Made by a program: the position numbers and the translations under genes. A model generated the notes under the pieces. The model saw only the letters and a list, made by a program, of their open reading frames with translations. It had not been told where the DNA came from and ran no database searches. From Polyangium fumosum (lineage in GTDB: Bacteria; Myxococcota_A; Polyangia; Polyangiales; Polyangiaceae): a stretch of DNA of 64,000 nucleotides. The stretch lies in the NCBI RefSeq assembly GCF_005144585.1, contig NZ_SSMQ01000026.1, positions 1 to 64,000 of the forward strand. Reading direction: 5' to 3'. Positions 1-9,424 of the stretch are shown here, piece by piece. Each line of letters begins with the position of its first letter. The first letter of the stretch is position 1.

Positions 1-9
1 CGGGCCTGT

Positions 10-117
10 TCGATGAACTGCGCATCGCGCAGTTCATCGAGCTTGGGTCCAGCCCCTGGCTGGTCCGGGGTGGAGGGGGCGGACAGCCCCCTCCTGGGGT
101 CTGGGGCAACGCCCCAG
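10..117. repeat. Multi-hairpin intergenic repeat, copy A
   Basis: Three perfect hairpins follow one another. The first is a 14-bp stem (10-23 with 27-40, loop atc). The second pairs GAGGGGGC at 73-80 with GCCCCCTC at 86-93 around ggaca. The third pairs CTGGGGC at 101-107 with GCCCCAG at 111-117. The block from about 44 to 120 closely matches 6213-6290, and the first hairpin matches the inverted module at 6060-6100, so this is a dispersed family and not one terminator. It ends just before the methyltransferase gene. Confidence 0.8.
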
Positions 118-181
118 CGCGGTGGAGCTCGGGGGCTTGAAGCGCGGCGCGGGCACCCCCATCATCGCGTTCGTGCGCCGC

Positions 182-976
182 ATGCAACTCGTCGAGCTCG
201 AGGATCTCCCCTGGATGCCTGCCGCCATCCGCGACGGCGGCACGGATCTCCTCGACTTTGGCTTCGATCGCCTGGAGTTTTACCGCGGGGTCGTGCCGAA
301 GCTCGGGGCGCTGCTCGATCAAACCGGCTGCACACAGGTGATCGACGTGTGCTCGGGTGGCGGCGGCGGCGCGCTCTATGCGATGCGGGCGCTGCGCGAT
401 GAGGGGCGGGGGGATGTGCGGTTCGTCTTGACGGATCGGTACCCGAACGAGGCGGGCCGGGCGCGTGTCGCGGAGCGGAAGGATCCTGGGCTCGTGTACC
501 GCGAAGAATCCGTGGATGCCCTCGCGGTCCCGCCCGAGCTCGACGGCGTGCGCACGATGTGGAGCGCGCTGCACCACTTCCCGCCCGAGGCTGTCGCGGC
601 GCTCGTGGCGTCGACCGTCCGTGATGGCAAGCCGCTCGCGTTTTTTGATGTCGCGGCCTCGCCTGCGCTGCGGCGGCTGCCGGGCGTGCTTGCGCCGCTG
701 GCGCTGGGCGTGAACATGACCATGCTCTTCGTCGGCTCGTTCGTCCTGGTGCCGTTCGTGCGCCCGCTGCGGGCGTCGCGCTGGGCGCTCACGTACCTCC
801 TCCCGCTGATTCCGACGCTCGTGGCGTGGGATGGGATGGTCTCCGCGCTCCGCGCCTACACGCCCGACGAGCTGCTCGCGATTGCGCGCGCCGTGCCCGG
901 CGGCGACGCCTATGCGTGGGACGCGGGTGTCGCGGGGTCGGCGCTTTATCTCACGGGATGCCCGCGCGTGTCGTGA
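182..976 (+). CDS. Class I SAM-dependent methyltransferase-like protein
   Basis: The 264-residue product has a glycine-rich SAM-binding motif I (VIDVCSGGGGGA) after about 45 residues, an acidic end of strand 2 (VLTDRYPN), and a motif IV-like stretch TMWSALHHFPPEAV. These are features of Rossmann-fold methyltransferases. A hydrophobic segment after the core (LGVNMTMLFVGSFVLVPFV and LTYLLPLIPTLVAW) suggests membrane contact. The substrate cannot be read from sequence. A GTG at 122 would extend the frame but lies at the edge of the hairpin repeat, so the ATG at 182 is preferred. No strong ribosome site is seen. The gene converges tail to tail on the next lipoprotein gene with a 24-bp gap. Confidence 0.7.
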   Translation: MQLVELEDLPWMPAAIRDGGTDLLDFGFDRLEFYRGVVPKLGALLDQTGCTQVIDVCSGGGGGALYAMRALRDEGRGDVRFVLTDRYPNEAGRARVAERKDPGLVYREESVDALAVPPELDGVRTMWSALHHFPPEAVAALVASTVRDGKPLAFFDVAASPALRRLPGVLAPLALGVNMTMLFVGSFVLVPFVRPLRASRWALTYLLPLIPTLVAWDGMVSALRAYTPDELLAIARAVPGGDAYAWDAGVAGSALYLTGCPRVS

Positions 977-1000
977 CGCGGCGGCGCCCTGGGACGGGCT

Positions 1001-2431
1001 TCACTTCTTCGCCTTGATCTCGATGACCCGGGGCCCCTTCGGGGCGTAACAGATGAGCTCGGGTTGCTCGTCCTTCATGTTCGCCTTCACGTGGGCGATC
1101 ACGGCCTCGCCTTGCTCCTTGCTCTTCACGGTGATGCCGAGGCGCCGCCCGTCGTCGTAATACTCGACGAGCCCGAGGTCGGCGACCTCGGGGAACGTGG
1201 AGAGCGCCTTCGTGGTCGTGGGGAAGGTGTATTTCGCGTCGTTCCTCCACGACACCTCGTAGAGGTAGACGAACGGCGTCTTGCAGCTTTCTTCCTCCAC
1301 GTCGGCGTTCTGCGTTTCGCGCAGCCGGGAGACGCCGCTGTGCGAGACCCAGATCGTCTCCTTGTCATCCATGACGACCGCGCCGAACCGCATGGGACGG
1401 GCGAGATTCGCGATCACGGTCCACGTGCCCTCGTCGAAACGGACGATCGACCGGCCCGAGATGCCGTGGAGCTTGCCGCTCGGCGAGACGAAGAGGTCCC
1501 GGATCGGTTTGTCGAGCGTCGGCAAGATGTCGAATTTCCCGCCGTTGTAATGCAGCACCGGCGTGGTCTCGACCCAGAGGTCGTCGCCCTTTCCCCGGAG
1601 CATCTTGGGGAAGTAGGCGAACTCCTTCACCAGGGCGCCGAGTTCGACGATGCGCGATGTGCCGGGCTTTTCCCAGACCTCCGCGGCTGGGCTCTTCGCC
1701 CGATCGCAGAGGTTTCCGATCGTCACGAGCGTGCCGGATTCGGTCGCGGCCACGGCGCTGGGCGGGAGCGCGATCCCCTTGTCGTTGTCGTCGCCCCAGA
1801 CGTTCTTCACCTCGCCCTTCTTGCAGCCGCCCTTCTCGGCCTCGATGGGCTTCAGCACGAGCGTCGGCCCCCGGACGGTGTCGAACCGATGGCCATCATT
1901 CACGTCGTACCCCACCACGAGCGTCGTCTTGCCGAGCCGGGCCGTGCCATGGATCCACCCGAGGGAGCCTCCCGGGCCGAACGTGCGCGACACGCCCTTG
2001 CCCGTGAGCGGGAAGTACGTGGGCATCGGCGCGCGGCCCATGTTCATGGAAAGCACGTCGACGCTGTCCGGCCAGGAGCCGTGGACGGAGGAGACCCGGG
2101 TGGGGCCGAGGGACAGGTTGGTCTCGGGGACGCTGCCGATCCACTCGACGCGCTCCTCGACGATCCGGCCGACGCGCAGGCCCTCGGCCACGAGGAGCGC
2201 GCCCTCGATGCCGAAGAGCTCCACGGAGAGCCCCTTCGTCCCCTCGAAGGGCTCGGGCGCGAGCGTGGGGATCGTCTTCTTCGGCGGCTCGCGCTCGGCC
2301 GACGCGGCGCTCGCGCTCGGGGCGGGGGGCGCGGCGCTCGGCGCGACGGTCGCCTCTTTTTCGGGCGTCGGGGTCGACTTGGAGCAGGAGATGGCGAGGG
2401 CGCAAAGGGCGGCGAGCGAAAGGTTTTTCAT
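1001..2431 (-). CDS. Putative lipoprotein with propeller-like segment
   Basis: The 476-residue protein begins with a lipoprotein signal (MKNLSLAALCALAISC, cysteine at 16), followed by a Pro/Ala/Ser/Glu-rich linker to about residue 60. The rest is beta-rich. The stretch around residues 310-360 (LFVSPSGKLHGIS, then VVMDDKETIWVSHSGVSRL) resembles repeats of two-component-regulator propellers, where short blades read environmental signals. The C-terminal 90 residues (from about YLYEVSW) look like a separate small domain. No catalytic motif is seen. It is probably anchored in the outer membrane or periplasm. The gene lies just downstream of the Sel1-repeat lipoprotein on the same strand, 47 bp away, and may share its transcript. 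Confidence 0.6.
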   Translation of the reverse strand: MKNLSLAALCALAISCSKSTPTPEKEATVAPSAAPPAPSASAASAEREPPKKTIPTLAPEPFEGTKGLSVELFGIEGALLVAEGLRVGRIVEERVEWIGSVPETNLSLGPTRVSSVHGSWPDSVDVLSMNMGRAPMPTYFPLTGKGVSRTFGPGGSLGWIHGTARLGKTTLVVGYDVNDGHRFDTVRGPTLVLKPIEAEKGGCKKGEVKNVWGDDNDKGIALPPSAVAATESGTLVTIGNLCDRAKSPAAEVWEKPGTSRIVELGALVKEFAYFPKMLRGKGDDLWVETTPVLHYNGGKFDILPTLDKPIRDLFVSPSGKLHGISGRSIVRFDEGTWTVIANLARPMRFGAVVMDDKETIWVSHSGVSRLRETQNADVEEESCKTPFVYLYEVSWRNDAKYTFPTTTKALSTFPEVADLGLVEYYDDGRRLGITVKSKEQGEAVIAHVKANMKDEQPELICYAPKGPRVIEIKAKK

Positions 2432-2478
2432 ACGAATCGATCGGAAAGAGGGGCGAACGATCCTGGTTCGTCGGAGCT

Positions 2479-4413
2479 TCAGGGGTCCTGGCAGAACTTG
2501 TTGATGGCGTCGACGAGCGGGTCCTCTTGCTTGACCGCCTTGTCGAGGTCGGCTTGCGCGGCGTGGATCGCGGCGACGTCCTTCGCGTCCGCCGCCTTTG
2601 CCATGGCGCGCGCGGCCTTCACGACGGCGAGGGCCATCCCGCGATAGTCAGCGCCGAACTGGACGAGCTCGGGCACCGTGAGGCGGACGCCCGCCGCCTT
2701 TTGCGCCACGTGGTCCATCACGTCGGCCATCCTGCGAAGCTCGCGTGCGCCCGTCGGATCGGCGTCGGGGTCCGGGCCCGGCACCTTGTTGAGGTCCTCG
2801 ATGCCCGTGTTGATGACCTCGATGAGCGCATTGCACTCGTCGACCTTCACGCGGCTCTTTGCGCGCAGCGCCACGCGGTCGGCAGGCTTCGCCGCGAGGA
2901 GCTTGCAGCCGAGCTCGTTCTCGCCGTCGCATGCCTTCCGGAGCAGCTCGGTCGACGCGGCCTCGTCGCGTGGCCCGCCGCGGCCCTCGGCGCGAAACAT
3001 GCCGAGTTCGAGGCACGCGTCCTCCTGCCGCCCCTCACACGCGCGGTGGTAGAGGTCGGCGGCGCGTACGTCGTCCCGCGCCGTGCCCTTCCCCTCGGCG
3101 TAGGCGATCGCCGCCTGCCCGCAGCCGATCACCGCGCCCGCCTCGCAGCTCTCCAGGAAAAGCGCGAGCGCGCGCGCCGGATCCGGTGCGGCCGTCGTTC
3201 CCTTGCCGAGGAGCTTGCCGAGCACCGCGCAGGCGTCGGGCAGGTGCGCGTCACACGCCGTGGAGACGAGCGCGAAGCCACCCCGCTTGTCCTGGGCCAC
3301 GCTGTCGCCCCGCACCATGACGAGCCCGAGCGCCGTGCAGGACGTCACGTCGCCCGCGGCGCACGCGCGCCGGAAGAGCGCGGCGGCTTTTTGTTTGTCC
3401 TTGGGCACGCCCGCGCCCTTTTCGTACGCCGCGCCGAGGTGGACGCAGGCCGAGGGCTCGGCCTCGCAGCCGCGCCGCGCGGCCGAGGCCCCTTCGACGG
3501 GATCCTTCGCGCCGCCCACGCCCTCGCCGAGGAGGGAGCCGAGGGTGGCGCAGCCGTAGGGGCTGCCCTCCTCGCAGCTCTGCGCGGCGAGGGCGCGCGC
3601 GCGTGGCCCGTCGCGAGGGACGCCGAGGCCGTAGGCATAGGCCCCGCTCAGCCATTCGCACCCGTCGGCGAGCCCCGCCATGCAGGCGCGCTGGAAGATC
3701 GCCGCGGCGCGCACCTGGTCCCGTCGCACGCCGCGCCCGAGGGCGAGCGCCTTGCCGAGCGCGAGACAGGCGCGCGGATCCTCGGCGGCGCAGCCCTTTT
3801 CGCTCACCTTGGCGGCCTTGACGAAGAGCGCCTGCGCGCGCTCGGGATCCGGCGTGACGGCGAGGCCGAAGAGGAGCGCGATGCCGAGCACGTCGCAGCT
3901 CGTGCCGTCGCCCGCGTCGCAGGCGTTCGCGAGCAGCGGGGCGCCGCGTTGATCGTCGAGGTCGGCGCCGACGCCGTGGAGGAACATCCGCCCGAGGTCG
4001 CCGCATCCAGCGGGATCTCCGCTGTCGCATGCGCGGCGCGCGAGGGTGACGGCCTGCGTCGGGTCGGCGGCGAGCGCCCCGGGAAAACCGTGCAGCATGA
4101 GCCGCGAGAGCTTCTGACAGCCGCGCGCATGGCCGCCCTTGCACGCCTTGCCGAGCGCCTCCGCCGCGGCGAGCGCCCGCGAGGGCCCGCGGTCGCGATC
4201 CCGAAACACGAGGTCGCCCAAACGCTCGCAGCAGGCCACGTTTCCGCCGTCACACGCTGTCCGGCAAGCGCTCTCCGTGGTGCTTTCGCAGGCGCCCGCG
4301 GGGGTGCTTGTGGCCACCTTGGGCGCCGGCTCCTGCGGTGCGGCTCCTCCACACGCGGCTGGCGCGACGAGCGCGAGGCCAAGGAGCAGGCGCGGAGCGG
4401 CCGAGCGATTCAT
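2479..4413 (-). CDS. Sel1-repeat lipoprotein
   Basis: The 644-residue product starts with MNRSAAPRLLLGLALVAPAAC, a lipoprotein signal with cysteine about residue 21. Between roughly residues 45 and 510 it contains a long series of about 36-residue Sel1-like repeats with the pattern A-C-x-x-G-x-x-x-G-C-x-x-L-G and G-x-G-V-x-x-D-x-x-x-A. Cysteine pairs recur in nearly every repeat, which is typical of the cysteine-rich (beta-lactamase HcpA-like) subgroup and suggests disulfides outside the cytoplasm. Such repeats usually form protein-binding solenoids. The C-terminal 120 residues are helical without repeats. An ATG at 4422 is also in frame, but the promoter placed at 4421-4450 makes 4413 the better start. 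Confidence 0.8.
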   Translation of the reverse strand: MNRSAAPRLLLGLALVAPAACGGAAPQEPAPKVATSTPAGACESTTESACRTACDGGNVACCERLGDLVFRDRDRGPSRALAAAEALGKACKGGHARGCQKLSRLMLHGFPGALAADPTQAVTLARRACDSGDPAGCGDLGRMFLHGVGADLDDQRGAPLLANACDAGDGTSCDVLGIALLFGLAVTPDPERAQALFVKAAKVSEKGCAAEDPRACLALGKALALGRGVRRDQVRAAAIFQRACMAGLADGCEWLSGAYAYGLGVPRDGPRARALAAQSCEEGSPYGCATLGSLLGEGVGGAKDPVEGASAARRGCEAEPSACVHLGAAYEKGAGVPKDKQKAAALFRRACAAGDVTSCTALGLVMVRGDSVAQDKRGGFALVSTACDAHLPDACAVLGKLLGKGTTAAPDPARALALFLESCEAGAVIGCGQAAIAYAEGKGTARDDVRAADLYHRACEGRQEDACLELGMFRAEGRGGPRDEAASTELLRKACDGENELGCKLLAAKPADRVALRAKSRVKVDECNALIEVINTGIEDLNKVPGPDPDADPTGARELRRMADVMDHVAQKAAGVRLTVPELVQFGADYRGMALAVVKAARAMAKAADAKDVAAIHAAQADLDKAVKQEDPLVDAINKFCQDP

Positions 4414-4420
4414 GCGTGTC

Positions 4421-4450
4421 ATCGGACCGTCGAGCGCGCCAGGCTGTCAA
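4421..4450 (-). promoter_or_regulatory. Candidate promoter of the Sel1 lipoprotein gene
   Basis: On the minus strand TTGACA (4445-4450) is followed after 18 nt by TCCGAT (4421-4426). The first base of the ATG at 4413 is 7 nt further on. The -35 is a consensus match and the -10 is weak. The spacing predicts transcription from at or beside the start codon, and no Shine-Dalgarno sequence is present. Confidence 0.45.
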
Positions 4451-4468
4451 GCAAGATGCACGGGAGGT

Positions 4469-4536
4469 CCAGGGCGGTGCCCTGGTTCGGGTCCAGGGGC
4501 GAAGAGCCCCTGGTCGGGACCGGGGTGAAACCCCGG
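4469..4536. repeat. Triple-hairpin intergenic repeat, copy C
   Basis: Three adjacent perfect hairpins: CCAGGGC/GCCCTGG (4469-4475, 4479-4485), CCAGGGGC/GCCCCTGG (4493-4500, 4506-4513) and CCGGGG/CCCCGG (4520-4525, 4531-4536). The GGGTCCAG and GGTCGGGACCGGGG words resemble copies A and B, but the order has diverged. It sits between the end of the TerB-like gene and the promoter of the Sel1 gene, where it could end transcription of the former. Confidence 0.65.
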
Positions 4537-4564
4537 CGAGACGCGGTGAACCCCCCTCTACGCG

Positions 4565-4603
4565 TCACGCCGGGGTTTTCACGCCGGGGTTTTCACGCCG
4601 GGT
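4565..4603. repeat. 14-bp tandem repeat at the end of the TerB-like gene
   Basis: The unit TCACGCCGGGGTTT occurs at 4565-4578 and 4579-4592, and a third partial copy begins at 4593, inside the stop codon and last codons of the TerB-like gene. The 14-bp period is not a multiple of three, so copy-number change would alter only the non-coding tail. Confidence 0.75.
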
Positions 4604-5111
4604 CCGACGAGGCGGCGTCCGCGCGCAGCGTCGGAGGTGTCCCCGCCGGATACACGAGCTTCACCCGTCGCTCCCACAGCCGGGCTTCTTCGAGGGCGAT
4701 TTCTTCGATTTGGCGGATCAAATCCTCGGCAATTCCGAGCTTCGATCCCATCTTGCGCACCGTGGCCCTCTCCCGGTCGTTGTATTCTCCATCGGCGCTG
4801 CAGGCTCGAACCGCGTCGTAAATGAGGACGCGCCGGGAAGCATCCGCCTGAGGGCTCATGGCGAGCAGCTTCTCGATATCCTCGTCGGCCTTGTAGGTCT
4901 TGAGCTCCTCCAGCAACGAGTCCAGCGCGCCCACGGCAGACCCATGGCCGAGCACCCACTCTCTTTCTGCGGGCGTCAGGTTGCCGTCTCCGTTGGCACA
5001 AGTGAGGATCGCCTTCAGGTAGCCCTCGAACGCTTCGAGCGTCGGCAATCGGTCCACGTTGCACTTCTGCTTGAGCGACCACAAAAAGCCCAGCTCTCGA
5101 TTCGTCGTCAT
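4593..5111 (-). CDS. TerB-like domain protein
   Basis: The 172-residue soluble protein has two acidic helical repeats, NGDGNLTPAEREWV near residue 40 and SADGEYNDRERATV near residue 105. These match the metal-binding helix pairs of the TerB family (also found in the N-terminus of DjlA). TerB-like domains are small all-helical modules linked to membrane stress and tellurite-type resistance systems, but no ter operon surrounds this copy, so the role is open. The chosen ATG has GAGG 5 nt upstream. A GTG two codons earlier overlaps that site. The stop codon lies in a 14-bp tandem repeat. Confidence 0.65.
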   Translation of the reverse strand: MTTNRELGFLWSLKQKCNVDRLPTLEAFEGYLKAILTCANGDGNLTPAEREWVLGHGSAVGALDSLLEELKTYKADEDIEKLLAMSPQADASRRVLIYDAVRACSADGEYNDRERATVRKMGSKLGIAEDLIRQIEEIALEEARLWERRVKLVYPAGTPPTLRADAASSDPA

Positions 5112-5442
5112 ATTCACCTCGGTGGTATCGTCGTTGGATGCGATGACTCTGTGCCGCTGTTCGGGGCGATGCCCATCTCGTCACGAGACACGGCGCCCTC
5201 CGGAGCCAGCGTTCCTGCCGCTCCGGGCCACCCTTCCGGGCCGTCGCACGCGCGCCGTCCAATTGCGCGTGGCCTCCGCGGTGCGCCGTGCGCTCCCACG
5301 CGCGCCGTGTACTTCCATGGGAATATAAAATCGCTCGATCGGACCGTCGTAACGTTACGTCGCCTTCGACGCTTGGCAGGACAGCAGCAGGCTGCGTACT
5401 TAGCTCCCAGCGCGCGGAAAATCCAGATTTATATCGGCCTTC
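5112..5442. other. Intergenic stretch without a convincing gene
   Basis: I see no credible gene in these 330 bases. AT-rich patches occur near 5321-5332 (gaatataaaa) and 5410-5435, unlike the surrounding GC-rich DNA. A 12-bp perfect palindrome CGTAACGTTACG lies at 5348-5359. The region lies upstream of the TerB-like gene and may hold its promoter. It may also hold decayed sequence of a gene lost from the Thg1 side. Confidence 0.5.
5348..5359. promoter_or_regulatory. 12-bp palindrome, possible operator
   Basis: CGTAACGTTACG is a perfect inverted repeat. It lies about 20 bp before an AT-rich TTTTATATTCC on the minus strand, about 210-240 bp upstream of the TerB-like gene. No matching regulator is known. 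Confidence 0.25.
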
Positions 5443-5520
5443 TTAGGAAGGCACGACCATCACCTTGGCCATGGGCGCCTGTGGGTCGCCCATCACGAAA
5501 ATACGCTTCGGCGTCGTCAC
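5443..5520 (-). pseudogene. Remnant start of a second gene, possibly a phosphoesterase
   Basis: A GTG overlapping the stop codon of the Thg1 remnant (GTGA overlap) opens 25 codons that read VTTPKRIFVMGDPQAPMAKV and end at a stop five codons later. The hydrophobic strand followed by GDPQAP resembles the first metal-binding strand of calcineurin-like phosphoesterases (consensus GDxHG), and the tight overlap is typical of a translationally coupled partner. Everything after the first strand is missing, so this is read as a gene fragment. The family assignment is tentative. Confidence 0.4.
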
Positions 5521-6053
5521 GCGTCGGAACGCTCCTCGCCCCCCGGGAGCGGCTTCGGCGGCGGCGTCGCCTCCTCGATCCGCTGACGAACGAACGTGGT
5601 GTACGCCATCCCCAGCGGCAACTCGAACTCCACATGCAGCCTGCGCCGCGTCGTGACGACGGCGCTTCCATCCCGCCCATCCCTGCCGACGTGCTCGACA
5701 TCGCGGTAATGCAGGCCCACGCCGCGTTTTTGCCAGGCCGGCAGATCGTTGAACTGGATCCCGTGCTGGAACAATAGCTCGTTCCGATCCGCCACCGACT
5801 GCCCTTCGAGCTGCCGCGTGGCCGCGCGATCCGTGAGCCCCTGGGATCGGAGGAGCCAGTAACAATGCCCGCCGAGCGCATTCCGGTGGGCGTCCTCGTG
5901 CCGCCAGCGGAGATAATCGATCACGTCCTTCTCGGTGGGGAGCTGCGAGATCCGGGCGTCGAAGGCCGCGTGATCGTCGAGGAGACGCGCAAACTTGGCG
6001 CTCGCCTCCCCGGCCAGGATCGACTCGTACTTGCGCAGCTTGCGGCCGAACAC
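5517..6053 (-). pseudogene. Thg1-type tRNA-His guanylyltransferase, C-terminal half only
   Basis: The 178 residues start at FGRKLRKYESILAGEASA and continue with RWRHEDAHRNAL, CYWLLR, NELLFQHGI and FNDLPAWQKRGVGL. These are diagnostic of the C-terminal half of Thg1/Thg1-like proteins, which add or repair nucleotides in the 3'-5' direction at tRNA 5' ends. Family members are roughly 230-270 residues long. Here the N-terminal roughly 90-100 residues, with the palm catalytic aspartates and the DGR motif, are absent. Upstream in the same frame only ten further codons precede a stop, and from 6060 onward the DNA is the hairpin repeat. The remaining frame is intact, so the truncation looks recent. 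A catalytically active product is not expected. Confidence 0.75.
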
Positions 6054-6059
6054 GTCTGC

Positions 6060-6100
6060 TCGATGAACTGCGCTCCGCGCAGCTCATCGAACAGGCCCGG
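6060..6100. repeat. Hairpin module of the dispersed repeat, inverted copy
   Basis: Reading the minus strand, the CGGGCCTGTTCGATGA module of copy A recurs here almost unchanged. Arms 6060-6073 and 6077-6090 form a 14-bp stem with one mismatch. It directly abuts the truncated end of the Thg1 frame. A similar module in the opposite orientation lies at 6173-6211, so the 73 bp between them is flanked by inverted modules. Confidence 0.75.
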
Positions 6101-6172
6101 TCAAGACCAGCAGCGACGTTGCCCACCAAGACAGCCGCGCTACGGCTTCTGCTGGCCCCCCGCCTTCTTCGT

Positions 6173-6287
6173 CGGCCTGTTTGAAAAACTGCGCGGAGCG
6201 CAGTTTTTCAACCCTGGGTCCAGCGCCTCGCTGGTCCGGGGTCGAGGGGGCGGACAGCCCCCCGCGGGGTCCGGGGCAGCGCCCCGG
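6173..6287. repeat. Multi-hairpin intergenic repeat, copy B
   Basis: CGGCCTGTT leads into a perfect 14-bp hairpin (6181-6194 with 6198-6211, loop gga). It is followed by GGGGGC/GCCCCC around ggaca (6246-6262) and CCGGGGC/GCCCCGG (6271-6277, 6281-6287). The order and loops match copy A. It lies immediately downstream of the DUF4178 gene and could act as its terminator. Confidence 0.8.
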
Positions 6288-6295
6288 CGCGACGG

Positions 6296-7768
6296 CTACT
6301 TGCCGCCGCCGAAGCTTGGACCGCCGATGAAGACGCCGCCGCCTCCGCTGCTTCCGCCGCAGTCGCTGAAGACGATGAGCAGGACGAACAGGACGATGAC
6401 GCCGATGATGAGCATCGTGCCGCATCCGCTGGTTGTGCAGCCGCTGCCGCCTTCGCCGGAGGCGAGCAGGGAGCCTGCGGGGGGCTTGATGCCGAAGGCT
6501 GCGCCGATGTCGCCGGACGAGAGGCGCTCGCAGAACGAGTAGGTCACCTCTTTCGGTGTCTGCTCGACGCTGACCTTGCCGCCGGGGCCTTCGTATTCTG
6601 TTGCCTGGACGGCTTCGCCGATCTCGACCTTCCAGTAGAACTCGCCGACCACGTATTCGGTCTCGGCGCGGACGCTCTGCTTCCAGTTGTAGTGCTGGCT
6701 GCGGAACATCGCGGCGCCGCCGGAGACGCTGACTTCGCCGGGTGGGATGGGCGTGACGAGCCACCACGCGCCGTCCTCCTCCATCAGCCACAGGTAGCCG
6801 ACACGCGGGCCTGCATAGAGCAGGTACTCGCGCCATCGGTAGCGCTCGCCTTCCACCGTGCAGCCGCGGATCGTGAAGCCGATGCAGATGACGCGGTTGC
6901 CGCGCAGGTTGCCTTCGGCGCCGAGCGGGATGAAGGGCTCGATCGGCGGCTTCGGCGCGGGGCCGAGCGCGCGCAACGCGCCCTGGTTGAGATCGCTCGC
7001 CATGCCGCAGTACCGGCAGACGATACGCTCGGTTTGTCCCGGGGTGACGATCGGCAGGTTGCCGCCGCAGTTCGGACACGCGACGCTCGTGACTTCGGCC
7101 TTTGCGGCTTCGACCGGCGCGCCCGAGTCGAGCACCATCACCGCGGGATCGATCTGCCGCCCGAGGTAGAGCTTCGGCGGGATGCGGCCGTCGCCGTAGT
7201 CGATCGTCCCGAAGGCGCCGTTGGGCGCGGCGATGTCCGCGTAGCCTGTGGGCACGCCGGGCGATGCGACGGCGGGCATCTCGCCTTCGCCTGAGATCAC
7301 GCGGCGCTGCCCGACCTCGGCGACGGTCCAGACGCCGTAGGTGCCGAGGCTGATTTGCTGGCCTGCGCGGAGCGCGTGGATCGGCGGGAGCTCCGGCGGG
7401 AGCGGCACCTCGCTCGTCGAGTACCAGCGCCCTTGCGCGCTCGCGACCCAGCACCACTTCCCGCTCATCGGGAACGTGATGAAAAACTCCTGCCATGGCG
7501 CGCCGGGCGCGCTCGCGCGATCGAGCTGCACGCGGCCGTCGACCGCGAACGGCTCGCCGCCGCTCCAGCGGCCTGTCCCGCCGAGCTGCAGGGGCGACGG
7601 GATGTCGACGAGGTCTGCCATCCGGCCGACGGCGACGAGGTTCCGGTCCGTGCGTGCAACGACGAAATTGCAATGCTTGCAGACCTGCGCAGCGGCGCCG
7701 GCGAAGCGGAACGTGATGGGCGCCCCGCACGACGGACACGCCGCCTGGCGGTCGAACGGGCTAGTCAC
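6296..7768 (-). CDS. DUF4178 protein with zinc ribbons and a C-terminal membrane anchor
   Basis: This 490-residue protein starts with a zinc ribbon (CPSC and CKHC, residues 11-36), followed by a beta-rich DUF4178-type module. A second ribbon (CPNC and CRYC, about residues 232-255) comes next, then a second DUF4178-type module containing YLWLMEEDGAWWLV. A single membrane helix (MLIIGVIVLFVLLIVF) and a Gly/Ser-rich tail end it. DUF4178 genes commonly neighbour membrane spermidine-synthase-like genes, as here, where the next gene is divergent 117 bp away. The biochemical role of the family is not established. Translation starts at GTG, preceded by CGAGG. Confidence 0.75.
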   Translation of the reverse strand: MTSPFDRQAACPSCGAPITFRFAGAAAQVCKHCNFVVARTDRNLVAVGRMADLVDIPSPLQLGGTGRWSGGEPFAVDGRVQLDRASAPGAPWQEFFITFPMSGKWCWVASAQGRWYSTSEVPLPPELPPIHALRAGQQISLGTYGVWTVAEVGQRRVISGEGEMPAVASPGVPTGYADIAAPNGAFGTIDYGDGRIPPKLYLGRQIDPAVMVLDSGAPVEAAKAEVTSVACPNCGGNLPIVTPGQTERIVCRYCGMASDLNQGALRALGPAPKPPIEPFIPLGAEGNLRGNRVICIGFTIRGCTVEGERYRWREYLLYAGPRVGYLWLMEEDGAWWLVTPIPPGEVSVSGGAAMFRSQHYNWKQSVRAETEYVVGEFYWKVEIGEAVQATEYEGPGGKVSVEQTPKEVTYSFCERLSSGDIGAAFGIKPPAGSLLASGEGGSGCTTSGCGTMLIIGVIVLFVLLIVFSDCGGSSGGGGVFIGGPSFGGGK

Positions 7769-7885
7769 GCCTCGGATGGTAGCCCATTTTCGTCGCGGGC
7801 GTGCTCTCTCGTCGGACGGCTTCCGACGTGGGCGTCTCGGATCGGGCTCACCGGCCGCGCCGACCCGGTGCTAGGAAGGCGCGGC

Positions 7886-9424
7886 ATGCCGCAGCCGCAG
7901 TTGCCGCGCCGCTGGGTCCACCCTGCGCTCCTCGCCATGGTGGCCGTGATCGCGACCTCCGGGCTCGTCTACGAGCTCGTGACGGGCACGCTGGCGAGCT
8001 ACGTGCTGGGCGACTCGGTCACCCAGTTCAGCCTGGTGATCGGCCTGTACTTGTTCGCGATGGGCATTGGCTCGTACCTGTCGAAGTTCCTCGAGGATCG
8101 CCTGCTCGAGCGCTTCGTCGAGATCGAGCTTTGCCTCGCCCTCGCGGGGGGCCTCTCGGCGCCGCTGCTCTTCAAGGTCTACACGGCGGCCGCGGCGTTT
8201 CGCTTCGCGCTCTACGGCGTCGTGGTGCTCGTCGGCACGCTCGTGGGCCTGGAGATCCCGCTGCTCATCCGGCTGCTCCAGTTCTCGGTCGACCTGAAGG
8301 AGCTCGTCGCGCGCGTCCTCACGCTCGACTACGTGGGCGCGTTGATCGCGAGCCTGCTCTTCCCGTCGCTGCTGCTGCCGAAGCTCGGCGTGCACCAGAC
8401 GAGCCTCTTCTTCGGCCTCCTGAACGCGGCCGTGGCGATGCTCGCGACGTTCCTCTTCCCGCTCGATCGCGCCGTCACGATCCGCTTGCGCGCGCAGTGC
8501 TTGCTCATCTTCGGCGTGCTCGCCGCGGTGTTCGGGTTCGTCACGCGGTTCGTCGACCGCGCCGAGACCGTCTATTTCGGCGCGCCGATCCTCTACACGG
8601 CGCAGTCACCCTACCAGCGCGTGGTGATCACGCGCTCGCCGCGCACGACGCGCCTCTTCCTCAACGGCAACCTCCAGTTCTCCTCGGACGACGAGCAGCG
8701 CTACCACGAGGTCCTCGTCCACCCCGCCGTCGCCGCGCTCGGCCGTGATCCGCGCAGCGTGCTCGTGCTCGGCGGCGGGGATGGGCTCGCGGCGCGCGAG
8801 CTGCTTCGTTACCCCTCGATCGAGCGCATCGTGCTCATCGACCTCGACGCCGCGGTCACGGACGCGTTCCGCACGCTGCCCGTCGCGCTGGAGCTGAACG
8901 GCGGAGCCTTGAACGATCCACGCGTCACCGTGCGCAACGAGGACGCGTACAAGTTCCTCGAGGACTCACGCGATTCGTTCGACCTCGCGATCGTCGACTT
9001 CCCCGATCCCTCGAACTACGCCGTCGGCAAGCTCTACACCGACGCGTTCTACCACCTCCTGCGCGAGCGCCTCTCCTTTCGCGGCGTCGCCGTCGTGCAG
9101 GCGACCTCGCCGCAGTACGCGCGTGAGTCGTTCTGGACCATCGTGCAGACGCTCGAAAGCGCGGGCTGGAAGACGGCGCCGCTCCACGTGTACGTGCCGA
9201 GCTTCGGCGACTGGGGCTTCGTGTTGGCGGGCGGCGAAGAACTCGCGGCGCCGGGCGCGCTCCGCATCGAACCCACGAAGCTCCGGTGGCTCGAGTCCTC
9301 GGGGCTGCCCGAGCTCTTCCGCTTCCCGCGCGACATCGGCCGTGTCGAGGCCCCCGTGAACCGGCTGAACGATCAGAAGCTCGTGGCGACCTACGCGCGC
9401 GAGTGGGGCGTCTTCACGCGCTGA
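7886..9424 (+). CDS. Membrane-embedded spermidine-synthase-like protein
   Basis: The N-terminal 215 residues carry about six to seven hydrophobic helices. The C-terminal part is a SAM/decarboxy-SAM-binding Rossmann domain with the spermidine-synthase signature GGGDGLAARELL, then IVLIDLDAAV and IVDFPDPSNYAVGKLY. Classical spermidine synthases transfer an aminopropyl group to putrescine. Membrane-fused members are widespread but their substrate is uncertain. The ATG at 7886 is chosen because AGGAAGG lies upstream and the hydrophobic region begins shortly after it. The stop codon overlaps the start of the next gene (TGATG), so the two are translationally coupled. No speD gene is present in the window. 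Confidence 0.8.
   Translation: MPQPQLPRRWVHPALLAMVAVIATSGLVYELVTGTLASYVLGDSVTQFSLVIGLYLFAMGIGSYLSKFLEDRLLERFVEIELCLALAGGLSAPLLFKVYTAAAAFRFALYGVVVLVGTLVGLEIPLLIRLLQFSVDLKELVARVLTLDYVGALIASLLFPSLLLPKLGVHQTSLFFGLLNAAVAMLATFLFPLDRAVTIRLRAQCLLIFGVLAAVFGFVTRFVDRAETVYFGAPILYTAQSPYQRVVITRSPRTTRLFLNGNLQFSSDDEQRYHEVLVHPAVAALGRDPRSVLVLGGGDGLAARELLRYPSIERIVLIDLDAAVTDAFRTLPVALELNGGALNDPRVTVRNEDAYKFLEDSRDSFDLAIVDFPDPSNYAVGKLYTDAFYHLLRERLSFRGVAVVQATSPQYARESFWTIVQTLESAGWKTAPLHVYVPSFGDWGFVLAGGEELAAPGALRIEPTKLRWLESSGLPELFRFPRDIGRVEAPVNRLNDQKLVATYAREWGVFTR

Follow-up and report, generated by a model that had tools for sequence, protein, structure and literature searches.

The thg1 locus of the window

The window, by which we mean the whole stretch of 64,000 nucleotides of Polyangium fumosum DNA that was analysed, carries close to its left end the remains of a thg1 gene, next to a copy of a dispersed two-hairpin repeat. 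The features discussed below are the following, in window coordinates:

1..122, (+): partial copy of the same two-hairpin repeat family, at the contig end
4593..5117, (-): small ORF, TerB/DUF533-like but below Pfam cut-offs, standing where the relative G060 has the partner gene of thg1
5443..5520, (-): 25-codon stub of a lost partner gene, MTTPKRIFVMGDPQAPMAKVMVVPS, with a GTGA overlap (5517-5520) with thg1
5517..6053, (-): residual thg1-like ORF of 178 aa, recognised by its Pfam match and its homology to the intact gene of relatives
6057..6058: junction, where thg1 codon 91 (GAC, first base 6056) gives way to the foot of hairpin 1, with the single base 6057 assigned to neither
6058..6297, (+): copy of the dispersed repeat without its left arm, composed of hairpin 1, a middle, hairpin 2 and the right arm
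6060-6090: hairpin 1, read from the sequence
6170..6291, (+): stretch that recurs unchanged as the first 122 bp of contig C49, probable assembly crossover point
6181-6211: hairpin 2, read from the sequence
6296..7768, (-): DUF4178 gene, not the ancestral neighbour of thg1

The 178-aa ORF matched the Pfam model PF14413 (Thg1C) with an E value of 3.2e-14 and 53.6 bits, well above the curated cut-off of 26.3, and by this relationship it belongs to the Thg1/TLP family. In the same Pfam search it had no match to the N-terminal Thg1 model, and PF04446 had none in the entire assembly (201 contigs) at E ≤ 0.001. Compared with solved Thg1/TLP structures, the fragment matches their C-terminal part (residues 82-226 of 5axk), and its GTG start is an internal Val in the intact protein. 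With the 112 N-terminal residues of a relative's Thg1 as query, the sole match in the assembly was the thg1 locus itself, from query residue 90 onwards; the first 90 codons of the gene had no match in the 201 contigs. Against relatives the residual frame shows one in-frame length difference and no stops. A preliminary description of this DNA had read 5517-6053 as the C-terminal half of a Thg1 protein whose catalytic N-terminal half was gone. The presence of PF14413 and absence of PF04446 bear this out, and the search of the whole assembly that it had proposed found neither an intact thg1 nor the missing half.

Intact thg1 in related genomes

Six Polyangium genomes, the window's own included, were searched for thg1. 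A full-length gene was found in G056, G060 and G062 and the fragment in the window's genome, and no match was obtained in the other two, G061 and G014. In G056, which is assembled in two contigs, the gene is whole, with 268 codons from an ATG (L002:1228-2034), and its product matches PF04446 (4.7e-30) and PF14413 (9.2e-14), as well as PDB entries 5axk (4.3e-24) and 4kgk (5.6e-17). The query for the genus and family searches consisted of 266 of these 268 codons, from the third codon; it was covered at residues 1-266 in G056, its source, 1-264 in G060 (94%) and 1-260 in G062 (89%). In a sample of 60 Polyangiaceae genomes the thg1 fragment was matched in 11, counting the window's own.

The intact G056 protein contains the motifs RLDGRSF and SDE, which bear three conserved carboxylates and are both encoded upstream of codon 91. 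The report on the Bacillus thuringiensis TLP gives D30, D75 and E76 as the carboxylates of its metal site (PMC3701042). A functional Thg1/TLP would be expected to have the PF04446 catalytic domain and the three metal-site carboxylates, and the window copy has neither. It is shorter than the full-length orthologues of close relatives, and no intact copy was found elsewhere in the assembly, as is expected of a pseudogene. Because the metal-site residues are missing, the 178-aa ORF is most likely an inactive pseudogene, as far as can be judged from its sequence. Neither a conserved 178-residue protein nor an intact locus with the repeat in the same place, the two cases that the preliminary description had set against its own reading, was seen in the six genomes of the genus.

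The substitution pattern bears on the age of the loss. When 175 codons were compared and the changes polarised, the window branch had 3 non-synonymous and 3 synonymous changes and the G056 branch 0 and 11 (Fisher one-sided 0.029, worked by hand). Unpolarised pairwise counts of non-synonymous to synonymous differences (9/16 for G000-G056, 15/35 for G056-G060 and 25/19 for G060-G062) showed no relaxation or excess. Small as they are, the codon counts fit a recent loss of thg1. The proposal that the decay was recent is in this sense plausible, with no stop in the frame, though it is drawn from few substitutions. It could be argued that the ORF encodes a functional shortened protein, its frame being open, its C-terminal domain kept and its pairwise counts not raised. 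We consider this highly improbable: in the genus the gene is full-length in three genomes, unmatched in two and truncated in the window's alone, the metal site is absent, the start codon is an internal Val, and the polarised counts lean to relaxation.

The break at the hairpin and the missing genes

DNA homology to the intact thg1 of G056 (94% over 541 bp) ends at 6056. The repeat begins at about 6058: in most of the listed copies the alignment opens at query base 2, in some at 3-5 or further in. The gene was thus correctly described at the outset as ending at a repeat hairpin. The gene upstream of thg1 in G056, G060 and G062, lost in the window, encodes a methyltransferase; it is divergent from thg1 and does not belong to an operon with it. 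A search of the assembly for an orthologous methyltransferase found none: its own best match had an E value of 8e-9, against values below 1e-152 in G056, G060, G061 and G062. The genes located beyond the methyltransferase in G056 are carried by contig C49. This contig starts in the element, passes its right end and regains homology to the relatives at the methyltransferase stop codon; its next gene after the 122 bp is the neighbour of the methyltransferase in the relatives. As no single contig spans both, we infer the adjacency of C49 and thg1. No element was found between the methyltransferase-side neighbour and thg1 in G056, G060 or G062, or between the same C49-type neighbour and a SEL1 gene in G061, where thg1 is absent.

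On comparison of these sequences, the simplest explanation is the loss of about 1.13 kb, comprising the methyltransferase, the intergenic region and 90 thg1 codons, with the element minus its left arm in their place. Among the scored copies of the window's genome, a non-random sample ranked by similarity to the window element, 38 of the 39 others (including one that a contig end interrupts) keep the left arm that is missing here, which places the break at the foot of hairpin 1. The locus comparison with relatives that had been suggested supports the truncation, the repeat at the break and the loss of one neighbouring gene to the left and one to the right. The preliminary description had gone further and seen both ends of a former operon lost; one flanking gene has indeed disappeared on either side, but the upstream one is the divergent methyltransferase.

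Two other accounts of the break were weighed. The truncation could be an artefact, with intact thg1 and methyltransferase genes sitting in an assembly gap, given that the assembly is a draft of 201 contigs, several of which end in or near two-hairpin repeats. However, both sides of the missing 1.13 kb join the repeat inside contigs (C119, the contig of the window, at 6056/6058; C49 at about 122-150), and the assembly yielded no piece of the missing genes, which makes an artefact quite unlikely. Alternatively, a complete element could have inserted straight into thg1, with the flanking genes decaying later. The presence of elements does differ between species (one in G061, none in G056 and G060), but the N-terminal half of thg1 was not found anywhere in the assembly and the window copy has no left arm, and we regard direct insertion as very improbable. 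Of the two roles first suggested for the repeats, that of bounding deletions fits the locus, while simple insertion does not, with about 1.13 kb and the left arm missing. We retain the deletion with one end at the repeat. At the same locus, G061 has lost thg1 and the partner gene, and G062 the partner gene, and neither junction carries an element; deletion here therefore does not require one.

The partner gene

The stub opens at the GTGA (5517-5520), runs for 25 codons and ends in VVPS. At the corresponding place in G060 the overlap is ATGA, and it opens a 374-aa gene that begins with MTGRRRMFVMGDPQAPMAKV, similar to the stub. By this likeness the stub is the start of a partner gene that is whole in G060, and the overlap and stub were as first described. 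The loss of the partner gene in the window left a junction without a full repeat. An arm-like repeat piece (a 56-bp match) lies at 4482-4537, beside the TerB-like ORF and near the end of homology with G056 (4451). The place that the partner gene has in G060 is taken in G056 by two repeat elements, which fits an association with the loss, not a cause. The partner gene was not found at the thg1 locus in G056, G061 or G062, and so was lost more than once, or early. It was matched at one of 56 thg1 loci, that one in Polyangium, some of the 56 being short contigs that end near the gene; outside the genus, the neighbourhood of thg1 and partner gene was not found among these loci.

The partner protein contains the motifs GDPQAP, GDHFD, GNHD and GHTGH, which we take to be typical of the calcineurin-like metallophosphoesterase fold. 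It had no Pfam, NCBIfam or PDB match, and a plasmid search likewise gave no confirmation of a metallophosphoesterase; that identity found no backing from a family profile or a solved structure. A single-sequence fold of the protein was unusable (mean pLDDT 38.6).

The right-hand neighbour

In G056 the DUF4178 gene lies at 3.12 Mb and thg1 at 6.30 Mb, 3.18 Mb apart, and in the drafts G060 and G062 the two are on different contigs. The element already adjoins the DUF4178 gene in G056, G060, G061 and G062. Past the junction, C119 and the 3.12-2.98 Mb region of G056 are broadly collinear, with indels. The DUF4178-adjacent flank of G056 was found on contig C3, whose end lies within the same two-hairpin repeat. 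The assembly most likely crossed over between two element copies, within 122 bases that are identical in both, and in this way joined the thg1 element to the DUF4178 gene. A crossover there does not explain away the junction of thg1 and hairpin at 6056/6058, since this lies outside the shared 122 bases.

A real join at 6058-6291 would mean that distant copies recombined and moved a 6-kb block, or a larger one; such a join would not conflict with the thg1 deletion. In its favour, thg1 and DUF4178 are adjacent in the contig as it stands, and the 122 identical bases common to C49 and C119 are presumably enough for homologous recombination. Against this, the 6-kb block ends at the contig end inside another repeat copy, C3 and C49 both terminate inside the same two-hairpin repeat, the remainder of C119 is broadly collinear with G056 apart from indels, and two neighbours each without the expected partner are what an assembly crossover yields. 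Recombination is possible but requires more coincidence, and we hold it to be unlikely. Contigs C3, C49, C119, C196, C159 and C16 of the window's genome end in or near the two-hairpin repeat, which seems to limit the assembly. In the 138 kb of C119 to the right of the junction, repeat elements are rare.

The two-hairpin repeat family

The usual form of the element consists of an inverted left arm, hairpin 1, a middle, hairpin 2 and a right arm, roughly 315 bp in all; in the window copy the right arm reaches about 6291. Hairpin cores with up to 2 mismatches occur 3 times in the window, against 0.01 expected from shuffles. A first look gave 370 repeat candidates in the window's genome, 251 in G056 and 125 in G014; 40 were scored in each, with 115, 105 and 73 matches respectively, a single copy being able to yield several. 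Copies are also present in G060, G061 and G062. In the family sample, with at most 13 candidates scored per genome, long copies were found in three Polyangium genomes, and 5 of the 57 others had only weak arm matches of 35-52 bp. The 14-base arms form a perfect palindrome in hairpin 2 in 37 of 40 copies and in hairpin 1 in 31 of 40. In being multi-copy and having inverted terminal arms, the family resembles MITE-like elements.

The left arm is absent from the window copy and from L150 (C114:74950-75950 of the window's genome), whose break lies within about 3 bases of the same hairpin-1 foot. L150 could point to an independent armless form. The element present in G061 (two pieces, 1125-1520 of reversed L063; C146, reverse strand 1113-1530) has empty counterparts in G056 and G060, and a possible, unproven 8-bp repeat, GGCGCCTC, flanks it. 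On contig C1 of G056, two stretches of about 810 bp, 86% alike (about 6301460-6302268 and 6316127-6316934; L014/L015), each have element parts on either side of a core of about 340 bp. In the same genome, about 6313948-6316958 (L015) is a 3-kb insertion relative to G062, where the empty site is almost clean; parts of the element lie close to the borders of the insertion. The motif GAGCATGGGTC / GACCCATGCTC, with up to two mismatches, is near one end in 12 of 40 copies and at both ends in one of those 12, and is suggestive only. Positions 1-8000 of the window had no Rfam match at E ≤ 1. One Y1 transposase gene was matched in the window's genome, with no hairpin core in the 3,357 bp around it, and a Y1 (RAYT) transposase was rejected as partner of the repeat for this genome.

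Discussion

Taken together, the findings make a lineage-specific deletion with one end at the repeat, which left a thg1 pseudogene, the probable explanation of the locus, the crossover at the DUF4178 join included. An ancestor of this Polyangium lineage had a full-length Thg1-like (TLP) gene and a downstream partner gene, as the relatives show. An element of about 315 bp may then have come to sit at the stop codon of the divergent methyltransferase upstream of thg1, and a deletion may have run from the foot of hairpin 1 through the left arm, the methyltransferase, the intergenic region and the first 90 thg1 codons; the end state is supported, while the order of the steps is what we infer. The partner gene was lost separately, leaving 25 codons, and the remaining thg1 would most likely be inactive. 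The join of element and DUF4178 gene would most likely reflect assembly crossover in the 122 identical bases of two copies.

Of the six Polyangium genomes, three have an intact thg1, one has a truncated copy and in two no thg1 was found. This pattern suggests that the genus can do without the gene, and the window offers a clear case of the loss of a 3'-5' polymerase-family gene in bacteria. The decay of the gene is ordinary; the repeat family, which sits in many copies in the genome, at the junction of a gene loss, and confuses the assembly, is the more interesting part and is worth a study of its own. Both armless copies among the 40 scored, those of the window and L150, break within about 3 bases of the hairpin-1 foot. 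We tentatively propose, with considerable doubt, that Polyangium carries so far undescribed mobile two-hairpin elements, restricted to this genus within the sensitivity of our survey, whose hairpin-1 foot would be a preferred deletion end-point that trims neighbouring genes. If hairpin feet are generally deletion end-points, the repeats would be a source of gene loss, which is testable across the genus. Searches of the open-licence literature returned nothing relevant on Polyangium or myxobacterial repeats, judged by titles and opening abstract lines.

Bacterial and archaeal TLPs are described as adding to or repairing tRNA 5' ends in vitro, and the same account gives them no demonstrated in vivo role in tRNA-His identity (PMC6471195). 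The intact G056 protein resembles those of known structure (PDB 4kgk, 5axk). The window fragment matches only their C-terminal part and, unlike them, is without the N-terminal half and all three conserved carboxylates. MITE-like and other intergenic palindromic elements are a general kind in bacteria, and the Polyangium repeat has in common with them its shortness, many copies, inverted arms, hairpins and presence or absence between species; it differs in that no transposase was found with it and no target duplication established. Pseudogenes that arose through a deletion beside a dispersed repeat are likewise a known general kind. With these the window shares the shortened ORF, the missing upstream gene and the repeat at the break, but here the break lies at the hairpin foot of a non-coding repeat and not at an insertion sequence.
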